A DNA stretch of 64,000 nucleotides from Pseudoalteromonas piscicida (GTDB lineage Bacteria; Pseudomonadota; Gammaproteobacteria; Enterobacterales; Alteromonadaceae). How positions within the stretch are numbered: the first letter of the stretch is position 1; every line of letters starts with the position of its first letter. The stretch is from contig NZ_CP011924.1 in NCBI RefSeq assembly GCF_000238315.3, forward strand, positions 846,501 through 910,500, in the 5' to 3' direction. Of this stretch, positions 19,909 through 36,975 are shown piece after piece. The position numbers and the translations under genes are program-made. The notes beneath the pieces were generated by a model. That model saw only the letters and a program-made list of their open reading frames with translations, was not told where the DNA came from and did no database searches.

Positions 19909-20817
19909 TTAACTGTGGTTGCTTGGTAAATATTGTTCCCAATTCGACACGGAAAATGGATACTCACCCGTTACATCTACTCGACTGCGCCAAAACTGCG
20001 TCGCGCCAGTATTAATCCCTTGATAGACAAAAATAACATCTGCAGCAACTCTATCTCCACTGTTGCTAACGTTGACGTCAACATTGATCAGCTGATAACC
20101 ATTAGGATTAGGACCATCTTGGTTGCTTTGGTAGTAAAGGTGAAATGACTGCTGGTATATTGCAGGGTTGTTATATAGCACATAGTTTAACGCGCGTGCT
20201 GCGTCACTATTACCTCTAGATATATTGAGCGAAGTTATTTCAGTAACAAGGTTTTGAAACTGATCGTTATTTGCCTTGACGCCATGTAACACCTCACCAA
20301 ATGGCAGTACCATCACTGGAATAATGGCACTAACTAGTACTGTATTTGGCGAGTGCATTTCGCCGATAATTACCACTTGTCCGGTTTCACCATTTATTGT
20401 TCGATCCAGTGCGGTAATACATTGAGTCAACAGTTCATCCGTTGGAATGAGTAAAGTATAAAGTTGCTCAATGTAGCGATTGTCCAAGACCCATTTCATG
20501 CTGCGCGCTATGTAACGATTTTTACCTAAACTTAAGCCTTTAAACAGCTCCTGATTAAGTTGTTTATTCCTGTTGAGCCTTTGTAGCGCAATGTCATCAT
20601 TGACGTTCTCCAACATGGGGAGCTGTGTTTCTTGGTTGCCCATTAAGCTATTTTGATATAGCTCTTTTTCTAGATTAAGGGTCGGAAATTGGGCATTTAT
20701 CACACCAACGGCATAGACAAAGTTTGTGGATATGGTTGAAGGTTCTGAGTTTGTTTCACCGTCGGCCAACCTCTGACTAAGTGGCAAATTTTGTTGAGTA
20801 GATAATGATTGGTTCAT
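19909..20817 (-). CDS. PatG C-terminal-domain-like protein 1
   Basis: Protein of 302 residues, last gene of the R-body island. Its core reads FVYAVGVINAQFPTLNLEKE, then NRYIARSMKWVLDN, LYTLLIPTDELL and GQVVIIGEM, the order of blocks seen in the C-terminal (non-protease) domain of cyanobactin maturases of the PatG type. No subtilisin domain, signal peptide or membrane helix is present. GGGAGG precedes the ATG. It is followed upstream by two paralogues with 9- and 18-base gaps, so the three form one transcription unit behind a rebB gene. The role is unknown; a binding or chaperone function for a small structural protein is a guess. Confidence 0.6.
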   Translation of the reverse strand: MNQSLSTQQNLPLSQRLADGETNSEPSTISTNFVYAVGVINAQFPTLNLEKELYQNSLMGNQETQLPMLENVNDDIALQRLNRNKQLNQELFKGLSLGKNRYIARSMKWVLDNRYIEQLYTLLIPTDELLTQCITALDRTINGETGQVVIIGEMHSPNTVLVSAIIPVMVLPFGEVLHGVKANNDQFQNLVTEITSLNISRGNSDAARALNYVLYNNPAIYQQSFHLYYQSNQDGPNPNGYQLINVDVNVSNSGDRVAADVIFVYQGINTGATQFWRSRVDVTGEYPFSVSNWEQYLPSNHS

Positions 20818-20826
20818 GAAGCCTCC

Positions 20827-21621
20827 CTAAATACTTTTCGCAAATGGCGCTAGTCTGGATGAAACAAAAGGATAGTGGTTGGTTACGTCGATATTACAGG
20901 CATAGCGGCTACGATCTGAACTACACAGAATAAACTCAACAACGTGGCGCATTGGTTCAGAGTGTATCTGTTGCAATTGAATAGCTTGAATATCATCAAT
21001 CAATAAGTGTTGGCTGCTATCAACGACGATTTGATAGAAGTGACTCAAAAAATAGTTACTGGCTCTGTCTTTTTTAGTTAACCCAATAGTAGGCTTAAGT
21101 GCGGGCAGCTCAAGCTGTTGGTTGGCTGGTTTACCATCTTTGAGTATTGGGACTTTGATATCGGTAACGGCAACTAGATGCTTTACCGTGGCGGTTGGCA
21201 AAGCAATGTCATCGTAGTGCTGTGCGGCATGTTCGCCTGTTAGCTCGCCAATAACCACATAAGTATTTTGTTGTTCTGTTGTATTGATCAGTGCATTCAG
21301 TTGTGTCGGTGTATCTGGCTCAAGGATATAAGTGTCTACCAGGTTTATGGTAAGAACCCATGTTGCTTGTTGCGCTAAATATAAAAATGGCCTGTAACTC
21401 AACTGAGGTTGACTGTCCATGGTTACACGATAGTTGAACACTTTATAAAACTCTTCGGGATTGGCCTTTATAGACAACGCAGCAGCTTCATATTGCTTTT
21501 CGAGGTTTAAGGTCGGAAAGCTTGGTTGAATAACACCAATTGCATAAATAGATGTATCATGATTGTCATGAGGCGCAAACTGTATTGGCACTGTTTTATC
21601 ATTGTGTATTGAGGTCTTCAT
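20827..21621 (-). CDS. PatG C-terminal-domain-like protein 2
   Basis: Paralogue of its neighbours, 264 residues. The blocks SIYAIGVIQPSFPTLNLEKQ, FLYLAQQATWVLTINLVDTYIL and TYVVIGELTGE line up with the PatG C-terminal domain, and the N-terminal extension is shorter than in the third copy. A good ribosome site (AAGGAAGGA) precedes the start. It is soluble and has no catalytic motif I can name. The divergence among the three copies is large outside the blocks, so they are old duplicates rather than a recent tandem event. Confidence 0.62.
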   Translation of the reverse strand: MKTSIHNDKTVPIQFAPHDNHDTSIYAIGVIQPSFPTLNLEKQYEAAALSIKANPEEFYKVFNYRVTMDSQPQLSYRPFLYLAQQATWVLTINLVDTYILEPDTPTQLNALINTTEQQNTYVVIGELTGEHAAQHYDDIALPTATVKHLVAVTDIKVPILKDGKPANQQLELPALKPTIGLTKKDRASNYFLSHFYQIVVDSSQHLLIDDIQAIQLQQIHSEPMRHVVEFILCSSDRSRYACNIDVTNHYPFVSSRLAPFAKSI

Positions 21622-21639
21622 TTATATCCTTCCTTTGCA

Positions 21640-22656
21640 TTAATCCAGTGGTATCGTATTCAGCAGCGGGAGGAATTGTTGTATTTCTGTATTGATAAAA
21701 GGATACAAGCCACTCACGTCGATACGACAAAAGTAATAATGATGTTTAGCAGAAGCGTTTTCTTTATAGGTTAGCGTAATATCAACAATCTTATGTTCAG
21801 ACACTGCGTCAAATTGGGAAAACGTGATGTCGGTTAGAGAAGCACTTGGCACGGTTGCAGACCCAAGACGCATTTTATGGGTTTGTAAGTAGATATCTGG
21901 ATAGCGAAATGCAACAAAATTCTTAGCTCTATCAAAGTCATCGCGGCCAGCATTTGGTTCGACTTCTAGTGCTTTTATCACATCTTGAATGGCATTGGTT
22001 TCCGCACTGGAAATTTTTTGAATTGTATTATGCAGCTCTGACAATGTTTGATGATATACCTGATGACAAACTATCTCAGCTAAATTGGAGTCGTGGTTAT
22101 TAGAAGAATGGCCAATGACGCAGGTATACACTAGCTCCAGTGTATCTTTAGGTGGCTGTAGCGCTTCAATTAGCTCTTCTAACTCGACTTTTGTCGCGGG
22201 AGTTAAGTGGTAACTCAGCTGTTTTTGAATGACTAAAATCCAAGAAACTTGCTCGGCAAGATAAAGATATTTGTCTCTGTTAGGATCGCCAATCGGCAAT
22301 GATTTATTAGTGAAAACTTCGTAATAGGCTCTTTCATCGACTGCGAGCTCCATTGCGGCTTGTAAAAATTGCTTTTTTATTCCCTCATTAGGAAAGACTA
22401 TTTCTACTTGCCCCACTGCATAAATGTAGTCAAAAGCAGCGCATTGCACGGAAGTAGGATGCTGAATTTCCTGCGCTTGCATTTGCTCGGATGAGTCAAG
22501 GTCTTGCTGGGCGCTCGGTAGCCTAGCATCGTTTGCCTCTACCGGCGCTATGCCAAGTGTGTCTGAGTCACAAGTTTTGCTATCTTGTGTTTCTGTTTCT
22601 TTAGAACTGCAAATTGCGGGATCTGCTGAGGTGACCTCAGGGTGTAATTCGCTCAT
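21640..22656 (-). CDS. PatG C-terminal-domain-like protein 3
   Basis: First of the three PatG-like paralogues in transcription order, about 338 residues. After an acidic, disordered-looking N-terminal 80 residues it has YIYAVGQVEIVFPNEGIKKQF, YLYLAEQVSWILVIQ and a CVIGHSS strand in the same order as the others. The ATG at 22656 is preferred over 22695 because of AAGAGAA just upstream. It lies 57 bases after the rebB copy at 22713, so it is probably translated from the same message. Function not known. Confidence 0.6.
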   Translation of the reverse strand: MSELHPEVTSADPAICSSKETETQDSKTCDSDTLGIAPVEANDARLPSAQQDLDSSEQMQAQEIQHPTSVQCAAFDYIYAVGQVEIVFPNEGIKKQFLQAAMELAVDERAYYEVFTNKSLPIGDPNRDKYLYLAEQVSWILVIQKQLSYHLTPATKVELEELIEALQPPKDTLELVYTCVIGHSSNNHDSNLAEIVCHQVYHQTLSELHNTIQKISSAETNAIQDVIKALEVEPNAGRDDFDRAKNFVAFRYPDIYLQTHKMRLGSATVPSASLTDITFSQFDAVSEHKIVDITLTYKENASAKHHYYFCRIDVSGLYPFINTEIQQFLPLLNTIPLD

Positions 22657-22712
22657 ATTATTCTCTTTTTTGATGAAGAAGTGCTGATGGAGCACAGCAC
22701 TTCACTTTGGTG

Positions 22713-22985
22713 TTAACTACTTGCAAGGATCTTCTTCGTTGCAATACCTGTAGTTGCTGTGTCTATCGAATAGAGAGTTGTAACACCCATAGTGGTGGCA
22801 GCTTGAGCTGTAACAGCCATTTGCTGCTGAGCTGTGGTTGCATTATGAGCTGCGTTTGCAAGCGCTTGTGAAGTTGCTTGGAACAAGTTACCCATTGACA
22901 TTGCTGGAGCATCACCTAGTACTTTTACGTTTGCTTGGGTGACTGAGTCAGTGATTTGATCGTTTACAGAAGTTGGAAATGCCAT
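22713..22985 (-). CDS. RebB family R-body protein (satellite copy)
   Basis: R-body structural protein of 90 residues. R-bodies are coiled protein ribbons that unroll and can rupture membranes. It has the full RebB pattern: PTSVNDQITDSVTQANVKVL, GDAPAMSMGNLFQATSQALAN, AAHNATTAQQQ and GVTTLYSIDTATTGIAT. It is nearly identical to the copy at 33694-33990, 11 kb away, but stands alone before the PatG-like trio. A TTAAGGAAAAAATC ribosome region precedes the ATG. Its promoter appears to lie over 400 bases upstream. Confidence 0.92.
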   Translation of the reverse strand: MAFPTSVNDQITDSVTQANVKVLGDAPAMSMGNLFQATSQALANAAHNATTAQQQMAVTAQAATTMGVTTLYSIDTATTGIATKKILASS

Positions 22986-23412: not shown

Positions 23413-23418
23413 TTTTTA

Positions 23419-23521: not shown

Positions 23522-24895
23522 TCACCACCTAAGTTGAGTTTGGTGGTTAGAAAGTCGACTTATGCCCTCACGTATATCCGTCATGGTTATTTCTGTGCGT
23601 GCTTCGCTGAGTAATCTTAATGATACAAAGCGTAATACATTGATAATATCGGCTCCACTCAGTGGATATTGCTCTGCAAGTTTGTTTAAACATATATTGC
23701 TTGATAGGCGAGATTGGTGGCAAAGTCCGCTTTGCCAAATTTCTAGTCGCTGTGCAGCCTTTGGTGCCTGAAACTGGACAATCGATTCAAATCGGCGAAA
23801 AAACGCGTCGTCGATATTATCTTTATAGTTTGACGCTAAGATCACCACACCGCTAAAGCTTTCAATACGCTGCAGCAGATAGGCGACATTTTGATTAGCA
23901 AACTGATCGTTAGAAGAGCTGGTTTTTAAGCGCTTAGTGAAAAGCGCGTCCGCTTCGTCAAAGAAAAGGATCCAGTCACGATGCTCTGCAAGGCTAAACA
24001 GCTGTTCAAGGTTTTTCTCTGTTTCTCCAATATACTTTGAGGTGATCAGCGATAAATCGACTTTATAGACTAATTTATCTAGTATTTTTCCAAGTACGCT
24101 CGCCGTTAGGGTTTTTCCTGTTCCGGGAGGGCCGTAAAACAGTGCTCGGTAACCGGGGCGGAGTTGTTTACCAATTTTCCATTGCGTTTGTAGTGTCTTG
24201 CCATATTGAACCCAAGTAATAATTTCGTTTAGCTGATGACGAGTGGTATCTGGTAGCTTTACATCATCCCATTCAAGTACTGTGTTTACTTGGGTTGCAG
24301 GAAACTGATGACTTGTTTCTGGCCGGTATGGCTCTGCAGTCGTGAACATTTGTATAAACTCGGGTTTAAGAACCAAGGGGATGTTTAATCGTGATATACC
24401 CTCAGATTCTCGATGACTGTCCATCATAAGGTTAAATAATTGGCTTGAATGGATCGTTTGAAGGACATCAAACTCCGTGTTGAGATTATTTCCGTCAAGA
24501 ATGAATGCCGCTGTGATCCCCGTTGTGAATATCAGCCCTTGAGATTCTTGTATACCAAACTCACTAAAAGGGCGGTTTGTTTGTTCGTTGATTGACAGGA
24601 AAATGTCGAGTAAAGGGGCATTGATAACCGGAACAAATGCTAGAATAATTAATAATCTTTCAATCAGGTTTGGCTTGCTGCGGGTAATAAAGTCCGCAAA
24701 TTCAGAGCCTGAGTTATCTAGCGTAGGTGGCAGTGGAAATTCTTGCTCAGTATTATCGAGTGACTGTCCAAAGTAATGTGACACACGATATTGAATAGCA
24801 CGCTGCAGCCAGTCGCACTCTTGTTCTAAGTCTTTGGCATTTAAAGCCGCTTTGGAAGGAGTTTGAGCTAAAGGCTCAAAGTTAGATTGCCACAT
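23522..24895 (-). CDS. AAA+ ATPase of the eCIS-associated type
   Basis: ATPase of 457 residues. An N-terminal helical domain (about 25-190, starting ECDWLQRAIQYRVSHYFG and including NLIERLLIILAFVPVINAPLLD) is of the kind seen in the ATPase of extracellular contractile injection systems (Afp15-like). The AAA+ core follows: Walker A GPPGTGKT (255-262), Walker B LFFDEAD (310-316), sensor 1 in VVILASNYKDN and an arginine finger in FFRRFES. AAGGAAG precedes the ATG. In such systems the ATPase is thought to help particle assembly or cargo loading; here no sheath or tube gene is present, so it may act on R-body proteins or payloads. Confidence 0.82.
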   Translation of the reverse strand: MWQSNFEPLAQTPSKAALNAKDLEQECDWLQRAIQYRVSHYFGQSLDNTEQEFPLPPTLDNSGSEFADFITRSKPNLIERLLIILAFVPVINAPLLDIFLSINEQTNRPFSEFGIQESQGLIFTTGITAAFILDGNNLNTEFDVLQTIHSSQLFNLMMDSHRESEGISRLNIPLVLKPEFIQMFTTAEPYRPETSHQFPATQVNTVLEWDDVKLPDTTRHQLNEIITWVQYGKTLQTQWKIGKQLRPGYRALFYGPPGTGKTLTASVLGKILDKLVYKVDLSLITSKYIGETEKNLEQLFSLAEHRDWILFFDEADALFTKRLKTSSSNDQFANQNVAYLLQRIESFSGVVILASNYKDNIDDAFFRRFESIVQFQAPKAAQRLEIWQSGLCHQSRLSSNICLNKLAEQYPLSGADIINVLRFVSLRLLSEARTEITMTDIREGISRLSNHQTQLRW

Positions 24896-25080: not shown

Positions 25081-25749
25081 TCATTGAAGTGCCCAGTAAA
25101 TTGGGTAAGTACCTGAGTTTTCGCCAATCATAATTGTGCGTATTGTGGTGCCACTATTTGATTCTTCAAATGGAGTATAAGTTGATTCAAGTACACGGCC
25201 GTTAGTTTGCTGCTGTAGCTGCACCTCATCGCCTAAAATACCTATTGAATAACCTGATTGAAATATATAGTGTTCAATTTCTTGTATTTGGTCAGATTTA
25301 GCACCATTGTCATTGTCATTGTCTTTTAGCTGTAGCCAGACTGTCGTACCGATAGGAATGGAGGCGCTATTTAACAGGTCAAGAACGTTGTTAGCTATAT
25401 CAAGAGGATTGTTATTGGTGTTATTGATAGAAGACACGTTGAGGATAAACATCGGCATCAATGCCAGCGCGTATCCGTGCTTTTCACTGGTGCCGGTTAT
25501 TCTGTCGGTTTCTTGAGCCGTTAGCGCAACATCCCACTCATTGTCTTGTGTGTTAAGGTTGCGCATACAAAAGCTATAACCTTCGCCTTTATATTTGTCT
25601 GCGACACTTGGCTTCATGGTACCGTTATAAATAAAGCCTTTTGCACCTGGGTGGGCAACACTGGAGTAGGCCAGATTGGGATCTGGCATATTCGTTACTC
25701 TGACATAACTTGGATCGTCTTTTGAACCTAAAGGTTTTTTGGCGTTCAT
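25081..25749 (-). CDS. Unknown protein of the R-body island (222 aa)
   Basis: Not recognised. A soluble protein without signal peptide or membrane helix; beta-rich in appearance, ending GTYPIYWALQ. It contains an Asn-rich linker (SSINNTNNNP) and an acidic low-complexity patch KDNDNDNGAKSD, and one Cys. It is preceded by its own strong copy of the island promoter motif, so it is expected to be produced with the R-body proteins. Possible roles are a coat, adaptor or payload protein; nothing in the sequence decides this. Confidence 0.65.
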   Translation of the reverse strand: MNAKKPLGSKDDPSYVRVTNMPDPNLAYSSVAHPGAKGFIYNGTMKPSVADKYKGEGYSFCMRNLNTQDNEWDVALTAQETDRITGTSEKHGYALALMPMFILNVSSINNTNNNPLDIANNVLDLLNSASIPIGTTVWLQLKDNDNDNGAKSDQIQEIEHYIFQSGYSIGILGDEVQLQQQTNGRVLESTYTPFEESNSGTTIRTIMIGENSGTYPIYWALQ

Positions 25750-25952: not shown

Positions 25953-26798
25953 TCAGTTTTTAAGTGCATTTTTGATGGTTTTAATCCAATCGCCATTTGC
26001 GTCACTTGAAAACTGCCAGTTCATAATACCACCCAGTTCAGTGGTGTTTTGAATGGGGTCAATAATCGCTTGAATAATAGTCCCTGCCGGCATGTATCCA
26101 GAGCCAGCATCGTGTACTGTCACTGGGAATCCTGCAATAATTTTCTTCGCAGACATATTCGGTAGCTTGATATAGTCCATATAGGAACTAACGATTTGAT
26201 CTGGGCATGCGCTCCAAGGTGGATTGTTGTAAAACTGAACGTTTAACCAGTCAATATCCTCTCCAACTTGTTCGACTATTTTAAGATAACCTGCCATGTA
26301 ACCACCATGCTCTAGGTAAGGAGGTTGCGGGGCGTGGGAAATACAGTAGCGGGGTGAGGGCAGTTGTTTTCTCAGAGCCCGTGTTAATGATACGAGAAAC
26401 TGTACGCCGTCATAACTTGCATTCGCGATAAATGCAGCACTATCTTCATAATCGATATCAATGCCGTCCAGATGGTTATTTTTAACAAAGTCCGCCAAGG
26501 AATCAGCCAGCCTGTCTGGATCTTGAGATAACGAGTAATATACGTTGTGATCCATATCGCCACCACCAAATGAGATCAATACTCTTTGCCCATTTTGCTG
26601 CATGGTTTGTATCGCTTCTACCGTATGGGCTGTGAAGCTGGTCTCTGTAGCAGCAATTGCACCGCTTAAAATTAGCTTAAACGGATTGTTTGAAGCCGAA
26701 GATAAAAACGCCAAGTTTACTACATCGTAAGGAAGCTCACCGGCATTGGCCAAAGGAATAGCACCTGAATTATAGTAGGTAATGGTTTTAGACATCAT
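25953..26798 (-). CDS. GH18 chitinase-like protein without signal peptide
   Basis: Glycoside hydrolase family 18 protein of 281 residues. The catalytic motif DGIDIDYE is complete, with general acid Glu118; the other barrel strands fit (VLISFGGGDMDH, NVQFYNNP, and GGIMNWQF near the C-terminus). The start MSKTITYYNSG goes straight into barrel strand 1, so there is no signal peptide and no chitin-binding module. The second ATG (26795) has better spacing from AAGGA. A cytoplasmic chitinase-like enzyme inside an R-body island suggests a payload released on lysis, rather than a nutrient enzyme. That role is inferred. Confidence 0.82.
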   Translation of the reverse strand: MMSKTITYYNSGAIPLANAGELPYDVVNLAFLSSASNNPFKLILSGAIAATETSFTAHTVEAIQTMQQNGQRVLISFGGGDMDHNVYYSLSQDPDRLADSLADFVKNNHLDGIDIDYEDSAAFIANASYDGVQFLVSLTRALRKQLPSPRYCISHAPQPPYLEHGGYMAGYLKIVEQVGEDIDWLNVQFYNNPPWSACPDQIVSSYMDYIKLPNMSAKKIIAGFPVTVHDAGSGYMPAGTIIQAIIDPIQNTTELGGIMNWQFSSDANGDWIKTIKNALKN

Positions 26799-27012: not shown

Positions 27013-27888
27013 TCAATCATTTATTGGACTAAGATCTGACAGACTCCAAGCCGTTCCGTGGAAGTTTGCAACTTGTACCGGACCGGAGTTATGTGCATGA
27101 GTGGCTATAGGCACTGGGAACATTTGACCTATCCATGCAGATACTCGATTTCCTGGTAATTGATAATAGTTAATTGTTACCTTAGCAACATTTGTTACTT
27201 GAGAGCGCCTTTCAGCGCCAATGTTTGGCCTATTGGAGGTCACGCCAACTTCGTAGTTACCAGTGATTGGATTCGAGTAGGTAATGAAGAACATTGAGCT
27301 GCTAAGACCTGGTATCACAGCTCGAAACGGAGGAGGGGTATCATTCCAAACTACATTAAGACCAACTGCATTTGCTGCAGTATTGAATTGTTCTCTAGCT
27401 TCATTTCTTACATGAGCTTCCCAGCTAGAGGATGCAAAGCGACTGCTATGTTGCTGTCTTCTAATATTTCCTACGGCACCTGTGAGAGTGTTCATCATTG
27501 CACTCATACCTCTGGGGCCTCCGGGATTTGCGTAATGTCTATTTCTGATATTTTGTAGCGAGTTTTGAGCACCATGCACAGAAGTAGAGTGATAAGCTTG
27601 ATTATTTTGTTCAAAGTTTTCGTTCTTGTTTTGAGCTATCCAATTCAGCGGATTATAACTTGAGCGACGGAGATATAGCCCATCTTTCTCATCTTCAGTT
27701 AGATTACCAGTGAGATAATCATAGAGCCCCACTTTTTGGATCACTGCAGCTGCTTTAGCATCTAAATTCTCCTTACTCTTTTTTAACGAACTATTTTCTG
27801 TGGCGGTATAATTGCAATCTAATATACCGTTATGCCCTTTTGATTTTTTCAATTGTGCATACATGAGCCTAATTTCTCCGATTCTCAT
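27013..27888 (-). CDS. Unknown protein, candidate payload (291 aa)
   Basis: Not recognised. Soluble, no signal peptide. The N-terminal 130 residues are polar and Asn/Gln-rich (NKNENFEQNNQAYHST), followed by a Gly/Met-rich patch GGPRGMSAMMNTLTGAVG and a C-terminal domain of about 150 residues (from SSWEAHVRNEAREQF) that looks folded. Met9 (27864) has GGAGA upstream and is an alternative start. It lies directly downstream of the DUF4157 gene; in eCIS loci DUF4157 proteins are often next to, or fused with, toxin domains, so an effector role is reasonable. No toxin motif is visible. Confidence 0.55.
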   Translation of the reverse strand: MRIGEIRLMYAQLKKSKGHNGILDCNYTATENSSLKKSKENLDAKAAAVIQKVGLYDYLTGNLTEDEKDGLYLRRSSYNPLNWIAQNKNENFEQNNQAYHSTSVHGAQNSLQNIRNRHYANPGGPRGMSAMMNTLTGAVGNIRRQQHSSRFASSSWEAHVRNEAREQFNTAANAVGLNVVWNDTPPPFRAVIPGLSSSMFFITYSNPITGNYEVGVTSNRPNIGAERRSQVTNVAKVTINYYQLPGNRVSAWIGQMFPVPIATHAHNSGPVQVANFHGTAWSLSDLSPIND

Positions 27889-28033: not shown

Positions 28034-28513
28034 TTAAATTGGGAGTGAAAGGGAGCTGACTTTTATGTTTACCGGAAAATCGTCCCTACATTTTTTAATC
28101 TGCTCACCTAAATATAATGCCAATTTTCCCCAGTCCGTTGCTTGCTGCTCCAGAGTTGGGTCGTCATTTACAGCTATGCCATTTACCTCTGTGGTGGGCT
28201 TTACTATCCCCAGCGCTTGTTGAACAACATGACCAAGCTCGTGGGGAAGGTGTTTCTCTTGACCTGGGGCCAAGTAAATATCCTTACCCTGAGCATATGC
28301 ATGAGCTTGTACTTGCGAAGGTTTTGACGAGTTGTAGTGCACTCGCACATTGGCCAAATTAACACCAGATAGTTTTTCCATGCCACGTCTGAGGCGTATT
28401 GGTAAAGCGCAGCTCTGAAGAGGAACGTTTTTTGCTCCTCGCTGACGTGCGGGGTTCTGCCTTACCGTTCCGGTAATGTGGCGCTGTTTGGTCGTGAGTT
28501 GATAAAATGTCAT
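28034..28513 (-). CDS. DUF4157 (eCIS core domain) protein
   Basis: Protein carrying a complete DUF4157 domain: MEKLSGVNLANVRVHYNSS, QAHAYAQGKDIYLAPGQE, the metzincin-like HELGHVVQQ and the tail VNDDPTLEQQATDWG. DUF4157 marks proteins associated with extracellular contractile injection systems, often cargo. The frame is open back to 28918, but that stretch is a shadow of the 85-residue gene and crosses a terminator. The first ATG after the terminator, at 28513, gives 159 residues and overlaps a 42-codon frame (28638-28510) at ATGA. Only about 25 residues follow the domain, so any toxin would be a separate protein. Confidence 0.7.
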   Translation of the reverse strand: MTFYQLTTKQRHITGTVRQNPARQRGAKNVPLQSCALPIRLRRGMEKLSGVNLANVRVHYNSSKPSQVQAHAYAQGKDIYLAPGQEKHLPHELGHVVQQALGIVKPTTEVNGIAVNDDPTLEQQATDWGKLALYLGEQIKKCRDDFPVNIKVSSLSLPI

Positions 28514-28664: not shown

Positions 28665-28673
28665 TTGTGACAT

Positions 28674-28931
28674 TTATTCAGTAGCTTCAACTGCTCGGGT
28701 TGCTTGTTGCTCTGCTTCATCTGGGGTTGAGGTGGCTGGGGCATCAAACGCTTGCTGATAGACACTTTGATCTGCTGCGATGACGGCGTTGTTAGCGACA
28801 TTTTCAGCCTCAGAAGGCGTTGCCGTAGTATGGCCTGTGGACTGAGCTGCCGTGGCGACCTCAGCTTGTGATACTGCTTGCATTGCTTGTTGTTCTGCAC
28901 TGAGAACCGATTGTTCATTTTGAGTGGTCAT
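28674..28931 (-). CDS. Low-complexity Ala/Gln/Glu-rich small protein
   Basis: Protein of 85 residues made almost entirely of A, Q, E, T, S and V, with repeated AEQQA/AVSQAE-type units and no aromatic residue but one Tyr and one Phe. Not recognised; predicted disordered or helical. AAGGATATTCC gives a good ribosome site, and a clear terminator follows its stop, which supports it over the long overlapping frame. Last gene of the main reb operon; possibly an R-body accessory or polymer-associated protein. Confidence 0.6.
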   Translation of the reverse strand: MTTQNEQSVLSAEQQAMQAVSQAEVATAAQSTGHTTATPSEAENVANNAVIAADQSVYQQAFDAPATSTPDEAEQQATRAVEATE

Positions 28932-28958: not shown

Positions 28959-29705
28959 TTATGCACTGTGCAGTGCTTCGAATGGGCCTTCAACCCAAAC
29001 ATCGTTATGAGTAAACAAATTGATGAGCTCTAGCGGCCGCGAGTCAGCTAGTTCAGATAAAGAAGTTTCCCAAATATTGCGTTGGGAGCGCACTTTGATG
29101 AGCTTATGCTTGTCCTGTTTCCAGTTTACTGGCAGAAATACACATCTTTCTTTAGCCTTTTGACCGTAGAGTCTATCGTTGGCGGAAAGGAAAACTAAGT
29201 TTCGTTTGTGGTTATCCGCAAGGTTAGACTCTTCCACGCAATAGCGTAATGACGCTCGAAACCAGTTTGGAAATGGCAAACTGGATGGCTGGTTTTGAGG
29301 AGTCGTGGTATTGTCTGCGGTTGCTTGAGGACTCTGTTGATTATACCAAGTGTGTAGTGCATCTATAGCCAAACTTCGGTATTGCAAAAGCGGGAGCGAG
29401 TCAATAAAGGCTGGCAAATCGTCATTTTTACTTAACTTAAAGCGTTCATAAGCAAAATGTAATTGGCCAATTGCGTTCAGACGTGAAATAACCAGCTCTG
29501 GGCGGTTTAAACCAAGTATTTCAATCGTAGTTTGACCTTTGGTTAATTGTATTGCGCTATCCTTGTCTAATGACTGAAGCCATCTCGTAAACGCAGGCGA
29601 TTCCATCAAGTCGTGTGACTCTTGAAGTAATTCGGGCTGTGACCAAACAAGCTGCTCGGCTTCATTTTGACTGATAGATTTGCTGTCCATCAAAAAAGTA
29701 GACAA
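28959..29705 (-). CDS. C-terminal part of an amber-interrupted HNH-type protein
   Basis: Frame of about 248 codons in exactly the same reading frame as the HNH gene before it, separated only by one TAG and 29 sense codons. Those 29 codons read PLLVCPYLEDPRQFVRFDP, the block expected right after the HNH domain in this family. The apparent start TTG (29705) therefore lies inside the ancestral protein. The C-terminal domain (about 240 residues, with SLPFPNWFRASLRYC and NIWETSLSELADSRP) is not recognised. Whether a separate protein is made is unknown. Confidence 0.55.
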   Translation of the reverse strand: MSTFLMDSKSISQNEAEQLVWSQPELLQESHDLMESPAFTRWLQSLDKDSAIQLTKGQTTIEILGLNRPELVISRLNAIGQLHFAYERFKLSKNDDLPAFIDSLPLLQYRSLAIDALHTWYNQQSPQATADNTTTPQNQPSSLPFPNWFRASLRYCVEESNLADNHKRNLVFLSANDRLYGQKAKERCVFLPVNWKQDKHKLIKVRSQRNIWETSLSELADSRPLELINLFTHNDVWVEGPFEALHSA

Positions 29706-29792: not shown

Positions 29793-30368
29793 CTACTCTT
29801 GGTCGATATTAATCAGTGGCGCACGTTCGCCAACAAGTGGAAATTGACCACCTTTATATTGCTCGTGACAAGCATTACAGACAAAAAGTAGGTTGTTTTG
29901 ATCATATGCCAATGAAAAGTACGGCGAGCAGGTCGCCACTACGTCTAAATGTGTTGAAACCGGTCTTTCCAGTAACTCAACAGGCCTGAAGTGGCCAACT
30001 TCGCCGGAGTTTGTCGCTAATAAATAGCTTTCGCAATAGGCACAGCAGCCATTACTGAGTTGTTGCAAGTGAGCTTTCAAATGATCGGATGCAAATAGCG
30101 CTGTATCAAAAGCGGCATAGTTAAACCCCACATTAACCAAGTCTTCTGTTAAGCCTGTCAGCCTGAGCGTGATAAATACGAGGTTATCTACTAAGTCAGG
30201 AGCGTAGCCCTCGCTTACTAGCTGCTTTCTATCTTCAATTGTCAGCGTATGATATTTAGGTGCGTCTACCAGGCGCGCCATGAGTGCTTGCATCTGTTTA
30301 TTTGCTGCTGCAATTTTTACGTCTTCGTCTGGTAACCAGGCTATAGGTTTACAATCTATCTGGATCAT
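29793..30368 (-). CDS. HNH endonuclease-like protein, ends at an in-frame amber codon
   Basis: First 191 residues of an HNH-type nuclease-like protein. Zinc/HNH features are visible: NGCCAYCESYL, GHFRPVE and FVCNACHEQYKGG. It resembles HNH proteins of the retron/TIGR02646 type by memory. The frame stops at TAG 29795-29793 in the context NIDQE-stop-PLLVCPYLEDP; homologues of this class continue through this point, so CAG (Gln) to TAG is the likely event. As it stands the HNH domain is complete but the following domain is cut off. It may be a payload nuclease or a defence-type protein placed in the island. Confidence 0.65.
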   Translation of the reverse strand: MIQIDCKPIAWLPDEDVKIAAANKQMQALMARLVDAPKYHTLTIEDRKQLVSEGYAPDLVDNLVFITLRLTGLTEDLVNVGFNYAAFDTALFASDHLKAHLQQLSNGCCAYCESYLLATNSGEVGHFRPVELLERPVSTHLDVVATCSPYFSLAYDQNNLLFVCNACHEQYKGGQFPLVGERAPLINIDQE

Positions 30369-30394: not shown

Positions 30395-30862
30395 TTATTC
30401 GCCTTGCGTGTCAGCACTGCGCTGCATTACATCATGTTGAAAGACTTGATTTTGATGCATTAGCTGCTTTTCCATGTTTTTTAGCGTTTCTTCCATCGCT
30501 TGTTGTGCGGCCTCAGCACTTTGGCGAGCTGCGACTTCCTGCTCCGTATATACTTGCTCTATCTGTGCTTGCTGGTCCTCTAATTGTGTTACTTGCGCTT
30601 GCAGTAATGTATCTTGGTAGGGCGTTTCGTGAGCGTCAGATTGGTTTATTTGAGTCTCACTCTCGAGCGCATTATGAATGCTGGCGAGATGTTGACGAGA
30701 CTGTTCAATTAGCTGTGAAGATTGCTGTAATGACATATCTATAGTGTGTTGTGCGCGGTTAAGCATGGTATCAATGTCGGCTAAAATGCTATTCATTTGT
30801 TTCGGCATAACGGCTTGAGAGAGTTCACCAAGCGCTGTAACCTTTTGATTTTTGGTATTCAT
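30395..30862 (-). CDS. Coiled-coil accessory protein of the R-body operon
   Basis: Protein of 155 residues, strongly helical and Gln-rich, with heptad-like runs from about residue 20 to 145 (MNSILADIDTMLNRAQHTID; LEDQQAQIEQVYTEQEVAA). No family recognised. It starts 15 bases after the upstream gene and is clearly in the reb operon. The composition suggests self-association or binding along a polymer. Confidence 0.6.
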   Translation of the reverse strand: MNTKNQKVTALGELSQAVMPKQMNSILADIDTMLNRAQHTIDMSLQQSSQLIEQSRQHLASIHNALESETQINQSDAHETPYQDTLLQAQVTQLEDQQAQIEQVYTEQEVAARQSAEAAQQAMEETLKNMEKQLMHQNQVFQHDVMQRSADTQGE

Positions 30863-30877: not shown

Positions 30878-31885
30878 TTATGCAACCAGCGGCCAGTGAT
30901 TTTGCACACTCAGACACCCTTGGCTATCAACATCAAGCAACGCTTCGCTGTGATATAGGTCATATAAATAGTGCCGGCACTGGCCGGCCTGACAGATATA
31001 GCTGTCTTTCGCTAATGAGTTGATTAGCGTATGTTGAAGCGTTTCAAGATAGTCATTTGCAGCTTGCACTAAATCGCCCTTACCTAGGTCTATGTTAAGC
31101 ACGATATTAAGCAAGCCTGCGCTGAAACTGCTAAAGCCCAGATATTTTCCACTTTCATGCCATTGCTTAATCGCATTGTGTAGATCAATAGCTTGAAGTT
31201 CGTAGGTGACCACAGGAGAATCTAAGTTGGCATTAACCACCGGAGAGAGGTTAGTAATTGCGTCATTTAGCGCACTAATAGGACTTAGTGAGCGCTTTTT
31301 CCACTCAAGGTAAATACATAAATATCGAGCAAATTCACTTAGATTTTGTGCCTGCTGAGTTGCCCATTGGCAAGCTGGGATAACGGTTTGATTTGATAGT
31401 TCATAGCAACGCTCACAATAACAAATAACATGGTATAAGTTGAGTTGATCCTTAAATGAGGCGCTCCAACCCAGAGCATGGTAACTCAAGTTATAACGGC
31501 GATAAAATAGTGCAATTTTGTTCAGAATCGTACTATCTAACAGATGATATTTGGTTAATAGATCATCTAAAATTGCTTTGCCTTTTTCAGAGTCTCGATT
31601 GCTCAAGGTCGCGAGGTCTCTGAGATCATTAGTAGTCAACTCGAGTAGTTTTTTCACATCGATTGAAATGGGAATATGATGTAAGTAGATCAACGTTGAA
31701 TTCATCAATCCCAAGTAAAGCTGCTCGATAAATTGCGCTTCTGACGAAAAGCGCATTATCTCGCTCTGTTGTATGAGGGCGTTGACACTCTCTTTTCCCT
31801 GATTTAAAAATTGGATCAAGGTTTGCGTTTTGTCGGAAAATTGCGCCAACTGCTCAATTTCTATGTTATTCACTACGATCGTCAT
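30878..31885 (-). CDS. Unknown 335-residue R-body operon protein
   Basis: Not recognised. Soluble, mostly helical protein with Cys pairs (CYCERC about residues 150-155; CQAGQC about 300-305), which could bind metal or form disulfides. No signal peptide or long membrane segment. It sits between the Reb-like small genes and the coiled-coil gene with gaps of 39 and 15 bases, so it is co-transcribed. The size and position are compatible with an assembly factor. Confidence 0.6.
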   Translation of the reverse strand: MTIVVNNIEIEQLAQFSDKTQTLIQFLNQGKESVNALIQQSEIMRFSSEAQFIEQLYLGLMNSTLIYLHHIPISIDVKKLLELTTNDLRDLATLSNRDSEKGKAILDDLLTKYHLLDSTILNKIALFYRRYNLSYHALGWSASFKDQLNLYHVICYCERCYELSNQTVIPACQWATQQAQNLSEFARYLCIYLEWKKRSLSPISALNDAITNLSPVVNANLDSPVVTYELQAIDLHNAIKQWHESGKYLGFSSFSAGLLNIVLNIDLGKGDLVQAANDYLETLQHTLINSLAKDSYICQAGQCRHYLYDLYHSEALLDVDSQGCLSVQNHWPLVA

Positions 31886-31924: not shown

Positions 31925-32284
31925 TTAGCTTCCACCACTTGGAAAGTTATTGAGTAGATCACTGGCAGAACTACCGACATCGCCAAAGTTTTTCGTACCG
32001 TTTTCAACCATCTTGTTAGCCGCTTCGATGATACTGTTGTATTCTTCGACCTTACCAGTCGTCAGCATTTGTGAAATCGCAACCCCCATTGCGGTAGTCG
32101 CCATGGTATTGATATTTCTTAGGTTGTCGGTTGCATCTTGAATTGCAATTGCCGTTGATTGAGAAACTGACTGATAAGCCTTACCGGCACCAGAGAGTTT
32201 ATTTAGCTCGCCGCTTAAGCTGGCATTTTTGATGATATCAAGCGTCGCTTGTGTTGATGGCCCGACATTTGTTAACTCATTCAT
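31925..32284 (-). CDS. Divergent Reb-like small protein (119 aa)
   Basis: Small helical protein whose centre (GAGKAYQSVSQSTAIAIQDA, then NTMATTAMGVAISQ) follows the RebB layout of polar-Ala helix, Asn/Gln turn and a TTMGV-type helix, without the N-terminal VNDQITDSV signature. The C-terminus is Gly/Ser-rich (DVGSSASDLLNNFPSGGS). Probably an R-body subunit or minor component, by position and pattern; clear homology cannot be shown by eye. Confidence 0.6.
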   Translation of the reverse strand: MNELTNVGPSTQATLDIIKNASLSGELNKLSGAGKAYQSVSQSTAIAIQDATDNLRNINTMATTAMGVAISQMLTTGKVEEYNSIIEAANKMVENGTKNFGDVGSSASDLLNNFPSGGS

Positions 32285-32325: not shown

Positions 32326-32661
32326 CTAGGTGCTTTTTTTGCTATCAGGGTCGAGGTATTGATGCAGGAGTTTTTGTACTACCTCTTCAATTTTGCTTAG
32401 ATCCAGTTGTTCTTCAGGCGCTTTGGGCTTTTCTGGTTTAGGCGGTGACTGCTGTAGCATTTTTGCACAGCTCGCTGCCGCAGCAGCAGAGGCCGAAGTT
32501 TGCGCGTTTTGCTGTGCTGTGACGGCGTTATACATCGACATCCCCATAGTTTCGGTTGCTGCAATATTGAGCATGCCCATAGATTGCATTGGAGCAGAGC
32601 CCGTCAATAGGGTATTAACTTGATTCACTGAATCAGAGATTTGGTCGTTTACTGTACTCAT
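32326..32661 (-). CDS. RebB-like R-body protein with charged C-terminal tail
   Basis: Protein of 111 residues. The N-terminus STVNDQISDSVNQVNTLLTGSAPMQSMGM is RebB-like, followed by an Ala-rich helix ending AAAAASCAKMLQQ. Unlike the other copies it then carries a Pro/Lys linker PPKPEKPKAPEEQ and a short amphipathic tail DLSKIEEVVQKLLHQYLDPD, which could be a docking segment. The family assignment rests on the first 60 residues. Confidence 0.75.
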   Translation of the reverse strand: MSTVNDQISDSVNQVNTLLTGSAPMQSMGMLNIAATETMGMSMYNAVTAQQNAQTSASAAAAASCAKMLQQSPPKPEKPKAPEEQLDLSKIEEVVQKLLHQYLDPDSKKST

Positions 32662-32677
32662 TTTGTTAATTCCTTTC

Positions 32678-32869
32678 TTATCCTGGTTTAACGGAAGCTA
32701 CGCCAGAGCTGATAATGAGTGCACAGCACTGTGCTACACTTGCACTGGATATCATCTGACCTCGAGCTTCGTTCTGCACGGCGTTCTCCATCAATAAAGA
32801 GATAGAGTTTCCCATCGTGATGGCGGCTACACCGAGCGAAAAAGTGTGTGCTTCGACAAGGGGTAACAT
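32678..32869 (-). CDS. Reb-like small protein (63 aa)
   Basis: Very short protein with the ATG at 32869, chosen because GGAG sits 7 bases upstream; the frame is open to 32893. The sequence MLPLVEAHTFSLGVAAITMGNSISLLMENAVQNEARG is helical, with alternating polar and small residues and a block (NAVQNEARGQMISSASVAQCCALI) spaced like the NAAHNATTAQQQ region of RebB. Likely a minor R-body subunit, comparable in size to RebA/RebC-type proteins. Assignment is by position and pattern. Confidence 0.6.
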   Translation of the reverse strand: MLPLVEAHTFSLGVAAITMGNSISLLMENAVQNEARGQMISSASVAQCCALIISSGVASVKPG

Positions 32870-32950
32870 GGTATTTCTCCAATTGAGCAGCACTTAAGTC
32901 TTTGTGAGTAAAGTCGTACTGATGTTGGATCCATCAGTACGACTTAGCAC

Positions 32951-33217
32951 TTAACGGTAGACTTTAGTGATGCCTTCCGCCGTAGTTGCCGTATTGATAC
33001 TCATTAGGGTATCTACGCCTTGCACCAATGCGGCTTGAGCTGTCACATTGTTATTTTGCTGTCCAGTTGTTGCATTGTGTGCAGCGTTTGAGAGTGCTTG
33101 GCTTGTAGCAATCATAAAGTTACCAGTTGCTACAGCAGGTGCGTCACCGAGTACTTTCGTATTTACTTGTGAGACTGAGTCAGTGATCTGACTGTTTACA
33201 GCTGTTGGAAATGCCAT
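32951..33217 (-). CDS. RebB family R-body protein
   Basis: Protein of 88 residues with the RebB pattern throughout (FPTAVNSQITDSVSQVNTKV, GDAPAVATGNFM, NAAHNATTGQQ), but diverged at the end: GVDTLMSINTATTAEGITKVYR replaces TTLYSIDTATTGIAT. Third gene of the main reb operon. The change in the C-terminal helix suggests a distinct position in the ribbon. Confidence 0.9.
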   Translation of the reverse strand: MAFPTAVNSQITDSVSQVNTKVLGDAPAVATGNFMIATSQALSNAAHNATTGQQNNNVTAQAALVQGVDTLMSINTATTAEGITKVYR

Positions 33218-33288: not shown

Positions 33289-33555
33289 TTATGCAAAAAT
33301 CTTACTTGTCGCGATGCCAGTCGTTGCAGTGTCAATGGAGTAAAGTAAATTTACGCCCATTGTTGTTACTGCTTGCGCAGTAATATTTGCCTGTTGTTGT
33401 GCGGCCGTTGCGTTGTGAGCCGCGTTCGCCAATGCCTGAGAAGTTGCCTGAAAGAGGTTTCCCATAGCGATAGAAGGCGCATCGCCTAGCACCTGTACAT
33501 TGGCTTGTGTAACAGAGTCTGTAATTTGACTATTTACAGCGGTTGGAAAAGCCAT
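33289..33555 (-). CDS. RebB family R-body protein
   Basis: Protein of 88 residues, second gene of the main reb operon. It carries all family blocks (VNSQITDSVTQANVQVL, GDAPSIAMGNLFQATSQALA, NAAHNATAAQQQ, LLYSIDTATTGIATSKIF). Closest in sequence to the first operon gene and the satellite copy. A TAAGGATAACACT region provides the ribosome site. Confidence 0.92.
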   Translation of the reverse strand: MAFPTAVNSQITDSVTQANVQVLGDAPSIAMGNLFQATSQALANAAHNATAAQQQANITAQAVTTMGVNLLYSIDTATTGIATSKIFA

Positions 33556-33693: not shown

Positions 33694-33990
33694 TTAACCT
33701 AATCCAGCAACCGGCTGTTTCTGAGGTTGAAGAATACTTTTTGTTGCAATACCTGTGGTTGCGGTGTCAATAGAGTATAAAGTAGTCACCCCCATCGTTG
33801 TTGCCGCTTGCGCTGTCATTGCAGCTTGTTGTTGAGCTGATGTCGCATTGTGTGCCGCGTTAGCTAATGCCTGAGAGGTAGCTTGAAATAAGTTACCCAT
33901 AGACATCGCTGGAGCGTCGCCTAATACCTTTACGTTTGCCTGAGTGACTGAGTCGGTAATTTGATCGTTTACTGCTGTTGGAAATGCCAT
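33694..33990 (-). CDS. RebB family R-body protein (first gene of main operon)
   Basis: Protein of 98 residues. The first 86 are almost identical to the satellite copy at 22713-22985 (VNDQITDSVTQANVKVLGDA; TTMGVTTLYSIDTATTGIAT), with about five differences; the last dozen residues (QPQKQPVAGLG) are unique. AAGGTGG precedes the ATG. It lies right behind promoter C, so it is expected to be the most highly made R-body protein. Confidence 0.92.
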   Translation of the reverse strand: MAFPTAVNDQITDSVTQANVKVLGDAPAMSMGNLFQATSQALANAAHNATSAQQQAAMTAQAATTMGVTTLYSIDTATTGIATKSILQPQKQPVAGLG

Positions 33991-34288: not shown

Positions 34289-35509
34289 TCAGTGTTTTGT
34301 ACGGTGATCTCGGTAGGCACCAGGACTGACGCCAACGACGGACTTAAACTTTCTAACAAAAAAGCTCAGATCGGAGAAGCCGACATCGTCACATACTTCA
34401 GTCACTTGACTATAAGGGTCTTCACGCAAAAGCGTCATTGCTGTCTTGATCCTTATTCGTAGCAAAGTTTGTTTAAATGACTGTCCAACATAACGTTTGA
34501 ATAAGAACGAGAGATGAGAAGGGCTGACGCACGCATAATTGGCAACCTCGCTTAGGCTCAGTGGCTTCTTAAAATTGTCATCAATATATTGCAGCGCTCT
34601 TGCTAAAGCAGGATGAGGTTTGTTGACAGGCCTAAGCGGTGATAACGGAGTAAAGTCGACCCCCTCACGACTATCTGAAGGGGTGTAACTGTGCTCATCA
34701 TCGCAGGATATCAGTGTTTGCATAGCTTGGGTAAAATCGCATTCAGCTTGTTTTAGTGGGATAAGATTACCCGTAGTTGGTGAAGGTTTATTTTCCATTG
34801 CGGGGAATAGAGTCAACAGAGTCTGTTTAGTGATTTCTGGTTGCTCACATAAGAACGTCAGTTTGTCTAAACAACGTTTGAGCTGTTTTACGTTATGTGG
34901 CCAATCATAACTGGTTAAGACTTCTAGCGCAGGTCCTTGAAATTGCAGTTTGGCGAGATGTTTACAAGTATGTTTGTAGTGGTTTATTAGGGCAATGATG
35001 TCTTCTTTACGGTTGTAAAGAGGAGGTATGGGTAGCTCAAGACAATGATAATGCAACCAACTCAAAAAGGAGTTGGACTGCATGTGTGTGTCTGCAGAGG
35101 TTTGTTTTTCCGCGCTAGTTGAGGTGATTAATCGTGGCGTGGGAGACTGCGGGGAAAGGGTGAGCCAGTAGTCTTTGATTGACTCGGCCTGCACTTGGGT
35201 CAGTGCGTCGACATTTTTGAGGTAAATGGTACCGCTTTGAGCTCGGTTGACAAGCTCTTCTAATAGGGTTGCTGCGCATTGACCTTGCCAATGGTTTACA
35301 CACGATACAATCATATCTTCAGAATGCGATTTACTCAGCTCATGAATATGGCAAGCGGCTAAATGTTTCCCAGAACCGGGTTGACCAACAATATGTATGG
35401 GTAAATCACATTGTGCTAAATGTTGAATTTGCTGTTTCAGTTTGAAAAGTACATCACTACTGCCAATCCAAGGTTGTGCTGAAGGTGTTAATTTTACGAG
35501 TATGGACAT
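34289..35509 (-). CDS. AAA domain-AraC hybrid transcriptional regulator
   Basis: Regulator of 406 residues with an unusual layout. The N-terminal 240 residues look like a decayed sigma54-activator AAA domain: Walker A GQPGSGKH (42-49) and the later block LEVLTSYDWPHNVKQLKRCLD, equivalent to the YxWPGNxREL motif. The GAFTGA loop needed to contact sigma54 is absent. The C-terminal 105 residues are a full AraC/XylS DNA-binding domain with two helix-turn-helix motifs (LSLSEVANYACVSPSHLSFL; VTEVCDDVGFSDLSFFVRKF). Placed directly upstream of the reb operon in the same orientation, it is the best candidate to bind the island's direct-repeat operators. Confidence 0.8.
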   Translation of the reverse strand: MSILVKLTPSAQPWIGSSDVLFKLKQQIQHLAQCDLPIHIVGQPGSGKHLAACHIHELSKSHSEDMIVSCVNHWQGQCAATLLEELVNRAQSGTIYLKNVDALTQVQAESIKDYWLTLSPQSPTPRLITSTSAEKQTSADTHMQSNSFLSWLHYHCLELPIPPLYNRKEDIIALINHYKHTCKHLAKLQFQGPALEVLTSYDWPHNVKQLKRCLDKLTFLCEQPEITKQTLLTLFPAMENKPSPTTGNLIPLKQAECDFTQAMQTLISCDDEHSYTPSDSREGVDFTPLSPLRPVNKPHPALARALQYIDDNFKKPLSLSEVANYACVSPSHLSFLFKRYVGQSFKQTLLRIRIKTAMTLLREDPYSQVTEVCDDVGFSDLSFFVRKFKSVVGVSPGAYRDHRTKH

Positions 35510-35538
35510 GGTGTTTCCTTATTTCTCATATTGCAGAA

Positions 35539-35573
35539 AACATGCCATTCAAGGTTCATTTGAATGGCATGTT
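35539..35573 (-). terminator. Perfect 14-bp hairpin between the two regulator genes
   Basis: Arms AACATGCCATTCAA / TTGAATGGCATGTT with a 7-base loop, between the end of the XRE-AAA gene and the start of the AAA-AraC gene. No T tract on either strand, so it may be an attenuator, an RNA-processing site or an operator rather than a simple terminator. Confidence 0.45.
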
Positions 35574-35618
35574 ATGGGGCTAAGGAAACGATATGGATAT
35601 TTCGACTCAGATATTGGC

Positions 35619-36975
35619 TCAGATAGGGGTCACTTGGTTTTGTGTATTAGATTGATGGTGTTTATACCAATCCAGTTCTAAGTCGTTTGCGTGACTTCTC
35701 AGAGATTCCCATACGAGAGGGTGCACAAAACTGTAGTGTTCAGCGTCTTGGGTTATCAATCCACTGCTCAACATTTTGTGTAACACACACAAGGGAGCAC
35801 GGATTTTTTTATGTTCATTAAATTGGTGAAGTTGTTTCGTATCGAAGTGTTGTCCAATTCGCGCTGCAAACTTAAGGGTATTTACAACTTCACATGGCAT
35901 CGAGTTGAGGTAGTGTTGAGTGAGTTGCTGTAGGGTTTCAGGAAGTTCTGATTGGGGATGGGTGACACAAAGTAGTTGAATTAAAAATAATGGGTTACCA
36001 CATGCCCGTTTTAAGGCAATAGCGGTTCTATGTTGATGTTTGCACGGAAGCATATCTCGGCTCAATAATGTGTGATGTGCTAATTGCTGCATCGAACTGA
36101 TATCTAGTGGCTTTAGATAGATAATATGTGCAGAGGAGAGCCATTTGGGAGGATGAGTAAAAGCATTTTTTTTCTGGGCAGACAGGATAAACAAAATACC
36201 AAAATGACATTGGACTTGTGTAAGTATGCTCAAAAAATATCTGCTTTGCTCGCTAAGAGTGTGTGCATCGTCTATCAAGATCGCTTGCACTTTTTTGTGA
36301 TTGAGATATTTCAGTAAATCACTGACTACGGTTCTATCAAGCAACCTTAAGCGCTCGTCTGAAAATTGACGAAGCGCCTGCTTGTGAGCAGAATTTAAAG
36401 GCAAGTCCGCCCATTGACGCATACGAATTGCGCTCAGCGGTGTGCTAGAAACGAGGTCTATTTGATGGCCTAACTCTACTTCACTATGTGCCTTAACAAG
36501 CAATAATGAGCGAACAAAATTGGCAACAAAAAAGTGAGGGTTGTTGTGATTTAAGCAGGAGTTTGTAGTAAATAGGAGGTAGTTTTTCTCCGCTCTCTTT
36601 AAGTGGCAAACAAAGGAATTGAGTAGCGCGCTTTTACCTATTCCTGTCATACCCAGTAGTAAGATGGTTTGAGCGCAAGGTAACGCCACCGCTCTACTAA
36701 AAATGATATGTAATTGATTAAGCTCCCATTCTCTTCCATATAATGGAGTGGGCTCGTCTTTTAACAAATAGCTATATAGCCATAAAGGAGACTCTGCTTG
36801 ATCGATTAATGTATCAATACTGACCTGGAAGTACTTTGCTAAATTTTGAATAGTTCTGCAGAGTACTCGATTACCAGATTCTGCTCGTTTTATTGTGGAA
36901 ACCGATACTGGGAAGCGTTGGTTTCTACAGTTTTCAGCAAGCTTTTCTCTACTTAGGGCTTTTTTTTCTCAGCAT
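35619..36975 (-). CDS. XRE-AAA regulator with a frame break at a run of eight A
   Basis: Regulator made of an N-terminal XRE helix-turn-helix, an AAA_16/MalT-like ATPase (YGREWEL entry, Walker A LLGMTGIGKSALL, Walker B QAILIDDAHTL) and a helical tail. The HTH (KALSREKLAENCRNQRFPVS, then STIKRAESGNRVLCRTIQNL) is in frame with the ATPase but has no start codon; the frame begins at a TGA. ATG 36975 followed by CTG AGA enters it only if the A run at 36960-36967 is read as seven. With eight, translation ends after nine codons. The only in-frame start left, TTG 36767, would lose the HTH. It may be a sequencing error, a null mutation, or slippage control. Confidence 0.65.

Follow-up and report, generated by a model that had tools for sequence, protein, structure and literature searches.

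R-bodies are protein ribbons, wound into a coil, whose sudden opening ruptures membranes. The loci known as Group 1 reb loci show synteny with the partner genes HP1.1 to HP1.4 (Raymann et al., 2013, PMC3583457), and according to the available sections of that paper the protein partners of Reb were still being sought in 2013; the available part of a 2026 survey (PMC13430693) holds that R-bodies unroll and kill, likely via the release of an unknown toxin. For the extracellular contractile injection systems (eCIS, such as Afp and PVC), the accessible text of the respective papers reports that Pvc15 loads leader-bearing payloads into PVC particles (PMC11495950) and suggests for DUF4157 proteins a role in loading or as a chaperone (PMC8213781, PMC11297309). 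Here we describe an R-body island at 19.9-37.0 kb of a 64,000-nucleotide stretch of the Pseudoalteromonas piscicida genome (contig NZ_CP011924.1; hereafter the window), whose genes all lie on the minus strand. We read it tentatively, with confidence a little short of even, as a Group-1-like R-body locus that carries a payload module related to that of eCIS, for which R-bodies are perhaps the vehicle.

Pfam searches and the reading of open reading frames (ORFs) assigned to the island six RebB proteins, an eCIS-type AAA+ ATPase, a DUF4157 protein, three PatG-DUF proteins, a GH18 enzyme, a split HNH-like gene and two regulators. The mix of RebB, ATPase, DUF4157, PatG-like, GH18 and two AAA-containing regulator genes that the original prediction had placed on about 17 kb of the minus strand is thus present; its HNH protein exists as an HNH-like gene, with a weak match (E 0.074) and split by an in-frame stop, and its Afp15-like ATPase does nest among eCIS ATPases, being of a type of about 450 aa and not of the 644-710-aa Pvc15 type. 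All six RebB matches over the cut-off (PF11747) in the 5.49-Mb genome are clustered here, and the single DUF4157 match (PF13699) of the genome also lies in the island.

By gene size and order, the reb operon resembles those described before. Three RebB-family ribbon proteins (33694..33990, E 1.8e-30; 33289..33555, E 5.5e-31; 32951..33217, E 4.3e-27) are followed by a short RebB-like protein with the size and place of HP1.4 (32678..32893, E 3.2e-8), a RebB-like protein with a C-terminal extension in the place of HP1.3 (32326..32661, E 7e-17), a 119-aa weakly RebB-like protein with the size and place of HP1.2 (31925..32284, sub-threshold E 0.0037), and a 335-aa protein with the size and place of HP1.1, which has no Pfam family over the cut-off (30878..31885). 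Group 1 loci have partners of about 110-120 aa and 335-360 aa in the same order as in the window, a likeness of size and order only, and in the available text on Group 1 (PMC3583457) and on the reb cluster of Pseudomonas aeruginosa PA14 (PMC8322103) multiple RebB genes, short and long Reb-like partners and regulators likewise stand in the cluster. Beyond the reb loci as these sections describe them, the window has the eCIS-type ATPase, the DUF4157 protein, toxin-like slot genes, a distal RebB and the three PatG-DUF proteins. We found no description of such a combined locus type in the open-access literature, most subscription papers and bioRxiv preprints lying outside this scope: there was no joint treatment of R-bodies and PatG, of PatG and contractile injection, or of R-bodies or rebB and DUF4157, and R-bodies and contractile injection were joined only through a reference title.

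The likeness to eCIS lies in the ATPase, in DUF4157, in the variable slot genes and, in two islands, in a homologous leader. The ATPase (23522..24895, PF00004 E 6e-28), a candidate payload loader, served as the query for a search of genome contigs, from which the best 80 of at least 544 confirmed relatives were kept. In a tree of 85 rows, which leaves out the Photobacterium sequence introduced below, the ATPases of the window, of a second Pseudoalteromonas genome (G243), of Alteromonadaceae M269 (G047), Pseudoalteromonas aurantia 208 (G295), an uncultured Shewanella (G298), a Bermanella metagenome-assembled genome (MAG) and Marinomonas balearica formed one clade (100/100) among eCIS ATPases. 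Within this clade the Shewanella ATPase grouped with the two reb-less ones, those of Bermanella and M. balearica (97/81), and the nearest six rows (96/90) comprised four loci with eCIS markers and two unclassified loci. A Pedobacter locus has two genes upstream of its ATPase, one with a CIS_TMP match at 1.8e-113, and 64 of the 80 kept loci contain homologues of both; the other 16 comprise 11 unclassified loci and five of those discussed here. The Pedobacter-derived profiles missed gammaproteobacterial eCIS loci, and these were recognised by ORF reading and cross-matched with the structural queries.

Next to the candidate loader on the reb-distal side are a distal RebB (22713..22985, E 1.6e-30) and three consecutive PatG-DUF proteins (c, 21640..22695, PF18065 3.6e-19 and PF18047 8.9e-15; b, 20827..21621, PF18047 5e-14; a, 19909..20817), each having PatG_D and/or PatG_C (19909-22695 in all). 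They share the DUF fold of the cyanobactin maturation protease PatG (PDB 4uvq), whereas the window has three copies in a row without a subtilase domain (no S8 match); a PatG homologue in G040 keeps that domain (PF00082). The stand-alone DUF4157 (eCIS_core) protein (28034..28513, PF13699 E 8e-12) has an HELGH motif. Its start is probably at 28513, giving a product of 159 aa, because a conserved 85-aa gene (28674..28931, with 53% identity over 85 aa to its counterpart in G243) overlaps the long ORF (28034-28918) and the relatives align from 28513.

The original prediction had called for the accessory genes to recur with rebB elsewhere, and they do. The block order is largely kept in five genomes: that of the window (G000), G243, M269, P. 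aurantia and Shewanella. In the RebB search 22 of 295 family genomes were positive, and reb stretches from 20 of the 21 others were compared, those of G073 and one reb place of G095 falling outside the comparison. G243 and M269 were found through their reb loci, and the whole island in P. aurantia and Shewanella was found independently, by the ATPase search, whose top-ranked matches were M269 (the same contig), P. aurantia, the Bermanella MAG, M. balearica and Shewanella. Homologues of the 335-aa protein occur in G243, M269 (two loci), P. aurantia, Shewanella and G553. The Shewanella order differs in that the Rv2525c-like gene follows the ATPase and a GH18-like gene of 28% identity is inverted, and the M269 island contains a LysM protein. 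In all five islands the distal RebB stands between the ATPase and the PatG genes; G040 has it beside three PatG genes and an Rv2525c-like gene, without the main reb operon or the ATPase in the 20 kb compared.

In addition, a rearranged copy was found in Photobacterium sp. GJ3, whose plasmid pGJ3-1 has, within 14 kb, RebB genes together with the ATPase, DUF4157 and two PatG proteins. This plasmid was recovered with PatG_c alone, which matched 5 of 72,556 records of a plasmid collection. Its ATPase is also the top plasmid match (41% identity over 98% of the query), and about 8-12 kb separate its ATPase, DUF4157 and PatG genes from a reb cluster that includes an AraC-type regulator; a window RebB query matched 14 records of the collection. 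We also noted that pGJ3-1 encodes, between its PatG genes and its reb cluster, a protein with a phage tail collar domain (L228:14454-15137).

No eCIS locus adjoins the islands, as the original prediction had also supposed. The 46 structural queries, taken from five eCIS loci, gave no match in 15 island or related stretches, so that no sheath, tube, spike, baseplate or terminator gene was found there, and as a control the same queries gave 35-52 alignments in each of seven contractile injection system (CIS) loci. Pvc16_N was found in five of eight genomes examined; the window's genome, G243 and the Bermanella MAG gave no match. A resident eCIS in the window's genome was rejected after ORF reading, which placed the lone sheath match (G000:C1:262055) in a P2-like prophage tail cluster; the strong sheath matches in G243 and P. 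aurantia likewise read as P2-like prophage tails, and a weaker one in G243 is an isolated sheath-like gene. The window's genome and G243 carry the full island, with DUF4157 in the island only, in genomes with no CIS cluster beyond P2-like prophage tails, as judged from sheath matches.

Between the HNH-like gene and the GH18 and ATPase genes lies a slot whose content varies among islands. In the window it holds, beside DUF4157, a candidate payload protein of 283 aa (27013..27864, start revised), the start of which resembles an eCIS-type leader. The slot protein of P. aurantia resembles XOO_2897-type deaminases (1.4e-5) and that of G243 resembles Ntox30 (3.9e-5), both just below the gathering score; other slot proteins have no Pfam family. 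The leader was searched among 964 ORFs of the islands and related stretches with an unbiased profile built from eight eCIS-side proteins only, which matched the island protein of Shewanella (1.5e-20), that of P. aurantia (5.5e-11) and, weakly, one of Bermanella (0.005). The Shewanella island protein is 67% identical over 39 residues (8e-12) to a P. aurantia eCIS-side protein, and six of its eight matches to eCIS-side proteins stop by residue 39. To judge from these alignments, the cargo leaders of the Shewanella and P. aurantia islands are clearly homologous to eCIS-side leaders. A first leader profile also matched the window protein (E 1.1e-19) and that of G243, which proves nothing because both rows were in the profile; it gave eight further matches with E values of 1.5e-5 or better, each of them on an eCIS-bearing contig, and no match in the Photobacterium stretches or in a second reb cluster of Shewanella (L172). 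A leader regular expression had 0 matches in 64 eCIS loci. The composition of 16 hand-picked slot proteins differs from that of 147 other ORFs (p 2e-4 to 8e-7) and is closer to the eCIS signal-peptide features given in the available part of PMC11297309; in the test 4 of 20 slot starts had been moved to an internal Met, and the repeat used the other 16, with unmodified starts and all picked by hand.

The link between PatG and reb was examined at two taxonomic scales. Among the 295 family genomes PatG_D occurs in six, all of them among the 22 RebB-positive ones (Fisher 8.6e-8, in a test that ignores relatedness); three of the six (the window's genome, G243 and M269) have the complete block, and in G029 and G073 the stretches that hold the PatG genes have no reb, the PatG of G029 having no blastp match to the window PatG proteins. 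In a class-wide draw, three of the four other PatG genomes have PatG genes with or inside subtilase-like genes, as seen by eye. The link with reb is thus confined to PatG proteins of the window's kind and those related to them, and does not extend to PatG in general. When 394 genomes of the order were searched with the PatG alignment, a single weak match appeared outside the window's genome. The distances between ATPases correlate with those between reb regulators at r 0.98 over five islands, which fits co-inheritance. On L183 (G319:C50:7500-27499) and L187 (G073:C434), ORFs of 66-67 aa with a shared GLGD-IK-T--IGIK-like segment stand beside subtilase-like and PatG genes and resemble a peptide-maturation system.

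From these comparisons we propose that the module would combine an AAA+ ATPase of the Afp15/Pvc15 class with a DUF4157 protein that stands alone and a slot whose toxin-like proteins vary and in part bear an N-terminal leader of eCIS type; to this module the distal RebB, the three PatG-DUF proteins and glycan-hydrolase-type enzymes appear to have been added. The two regulators would switch the locus on, and in the cytoplasm the Reb proteins would assemble an R-body; DUF4157 and the ATPase may then recognise the payload, in the window perhaps the 283-aa protein, and associate it with the R-body, for which the distal Reb and the PatG proteins could act as a dock or adaptor. When the cell is eaten, for example by a protist as the original prediction suggests, or lysed, extension of the R-body would break membranes and free the toxins, and the hydrolases might help to open the wall. 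The locus offers the slot proteins as candidate R-body toxins, the ATPase as a candidate loader and, in two islands, the leader as a possible sorting signal. In its strongest form, the proposal makes R-bodies a loaded delivery device: toxins would be sorted onto the ribbon by DUF4157 and an ATPase of eCIS origin, and the R-body toxins sought for so long would be the slot proteins; this we consider possible, though doubtful. If true, a payload module would have moved between delivery machines as unrelated as a phage-tail-derived particle and a ribbon polymer, and R-bodies would have taken over the payload system of contractile injection particles in these marine gammaproteobacteria.

The original prediction is supported in part, by the recurrence of the accessory genes with rebB, the lack of an adjoining eCIS locus, the two full-island genomes without Pvc16_N or a CIS cluster other than prophage tails, and the place of the ATPase among eCIS ATPases. 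Several observations weigh against such a role for R-bodies. The eCIS-side leader profile gave the window protein an E of 0.31 and that of G243 0.45, neither significant, and no M269 ORF was among its matches. The genomes of P. aurantia and Shewanella also have eCIS; the islands with a clear leader therefore share genomes with eCIS of the same leader, and their cargo could serve these eCIS in trans. PatG was not an eCIS component in any search made, and in the class-wide draw PatG_D (5 of 369 genomes) and RebB (4 of 369) coincided only in the window's genome. ATPase distances correlated less with those of the 335-aa (r 0.76) and 119-aa (r 0.58) partners over five islands, and all of these correlations in part also follow species kinship. 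The HNH-like gene is split in the window. DUF4157 stands beside reb in 2 of the 20 other RebB-positive family genomes and most reb loci lack the module, which is therefore optional; M. balearica and the Bermanella MAG, whose assemblies show no RebB, have the clade ATPase and three PatG genes. Finally, G677 and G267 retain at the island site one reb gene, without the module. In these two genomes the flanks of the island (window 14161-19.8k and 37261-42786) are 94-96% identical and about 0.7 kb apart, and the reb gene between them, which matches window 32951-33217 in DNA, is the sole RebB match in G267 (G677 was searched at the site only). It follows that the site either gained about 17.4 kb or lost this block down to one gene.

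The trans service just mentioned is the core of the first alternative, namely that the module stores effectors for contractile injection particles and just happens to adjoin an R-body locus, its cargo being loaded in trans and the depot being left over where the eCIS is gone. The clear island leaders of P. aurantia and Shewanella match proteins beside eCIS genes in G040, P. aurantia and Shewanella, and the exclusive occurrence of the eight further leader matches on eCIS-bearing contigs, the presence of Pvc16_N in most of the genomes examined and the occurrence in M. balearica of the ATPase/PatG part together with an eCIS and no RebB all agree with it. Against this, the window's genome and G243, with neither Pvc16_N nor a detected eCIS cluster, keep an ATPase with an open frame as well as DUF4157 and slot genes; G040 and P. 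aurantia have, in their eCIS stretches, distinct ATPases of Pvc15 type (710 and 644 aa, respectively); a RebB gene lies between the ATPase and PatG genes in the five islands; and Photobacterium repeats the association in another order. We regard this explanation as somewhat unlikely.

A second alternative, which we rate as unlikely, holds that the ATPase, PatG, Rv2525c-like and cargo genes form an independent machine of unknown type that is near reb through a shared lytic or anti-predator programme. The PatG-DUF genes indeed form a triple that is conserved and shares the DUF fold of cyanobactin PatG, and the Bermanella MAG has a locus with ATPase, PatG and Rv2525c-like genes, leader-like proteins and a patatin, in an assembly that gave no match to RebB, sheath, Pvc16_N or DUF4157. 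As this assembly is a MAG and the locus lies on a contig of 28.8 kb, such absence is weak evidence, and the RebB gene embedded in the block in five islands also speaks against an independent machine. That the island is a chance composite of unrelated insertions in a hot spot, as transposase- or insertion-sequence-like ORFs seen by eye in the P. aurantia and G243 slots and the single reb gene at the site in two close relatives might suggest, is already disfavoured by recurrence and very improbable, since order and orientation are largely kept in five genomes at pairwise protein identities down to about 30% and Photobacterium holds an independent rearranged copy.

The remaining genes of the island are as follows. 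The upstream regulator (35619..36968), with an AAA_16 domain (E 2e-13), has 382 aa from its called TTG start (35619-36767), and its frame is open upstream to about 36968, taking in a helix-turn-helix (HTH)-like region; homologues occur in G243 and M269, and similar ORFs were seen by eye in the same place in P. aurantia and Shewanella. The second regulator (34289..35509) combines, by Pfam, a sigma54-activator-like AAA domain with an AraC HTH and is 68% identical in G243. A 155-aa protein (30395..30862) has homologues in the same place in G243, M269 and Shewanella. The HNH-like ORFs 29793..30368 (N-terminal half, 191 aa) and 28959..29705 (C-terminal half, 248 aa) are halves of one gene, divided by an in-frame stop at 29793-29795, and correspond to one ORF of 476-538 aa in G243, M269, P. 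aurantia and Shewanella; the split may be a real mutation, a two-gene form or a sequencing error. In G037 (L044 13418-15032) and in the second M269 reb locus (L049 4812-6376) the HNH-like gene also forms two ORFs, divided elsewhere.

The GH18 enzyme (25953..26798, PF00704 E 1e-18), with no obvious signal peptide by eye, is 72-75% identical in G243 and P. aurantia and 28% in Shewanella, and no homologue was found in M269. The 222-aa protein at 25081..25749, conserved in the islands, belongs to the Rv2525c/DUF1906 family: three of eight aligned family members match the Rv2525c-like glycoside-hydrolase domain (PF08924, best 7.8e-14), and the window copy alone does not. A structure model of this protein was poor (mean predicted local distance difference test score, pLDDT, 53.6), and the fold search was therefore uninformative. 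Rfam and tRNA searches of the window gave no match, promoter-like sites were not in excess (36 against 38.4 in shuffles), terminator-like sites numbered 24 against 15.6 in shuffles, and neither entered the interpretation. Near the island, window 14200-16614 encodes an 804-aa protein with no Pfam match.

Other reb loci offered several minor observations. G037, G044 and the second M269 locus have reb and HNH-like genes and no ATPase, PatG or DUF4157 match, and in two such module-less loci, L046 (G044) and L049 (M269), a GH25 gene stands just after the HNH-like gene. An AAA fragment of 180 aa lies close to the reb genes of G144. The second, different reb cluster of Shewanella (L172, G298:C3:5000-24999, at about 8343-18907) is followed directly by two DUF4157 proteins and leader-like ORFs, as seen by eye, in a stretch with no ATPase or PatG match. 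In the Bermanella MAG, an assembly in which no reb or eCIS marker was found, a row of leader-like proteins and a patatin-like phospholipase lies close to the ATPase (L069, 402-6279). Single reb genes, apart from an operon or in operon-less genomes, were seen in L035 (G231), L038 at about 5876 (G243), L039 (G267) and L219 (G677), and at G663:C30:795321-795521 a RebB match lies within a 341-aa open frame, which may be a fusion or a chance long frame.

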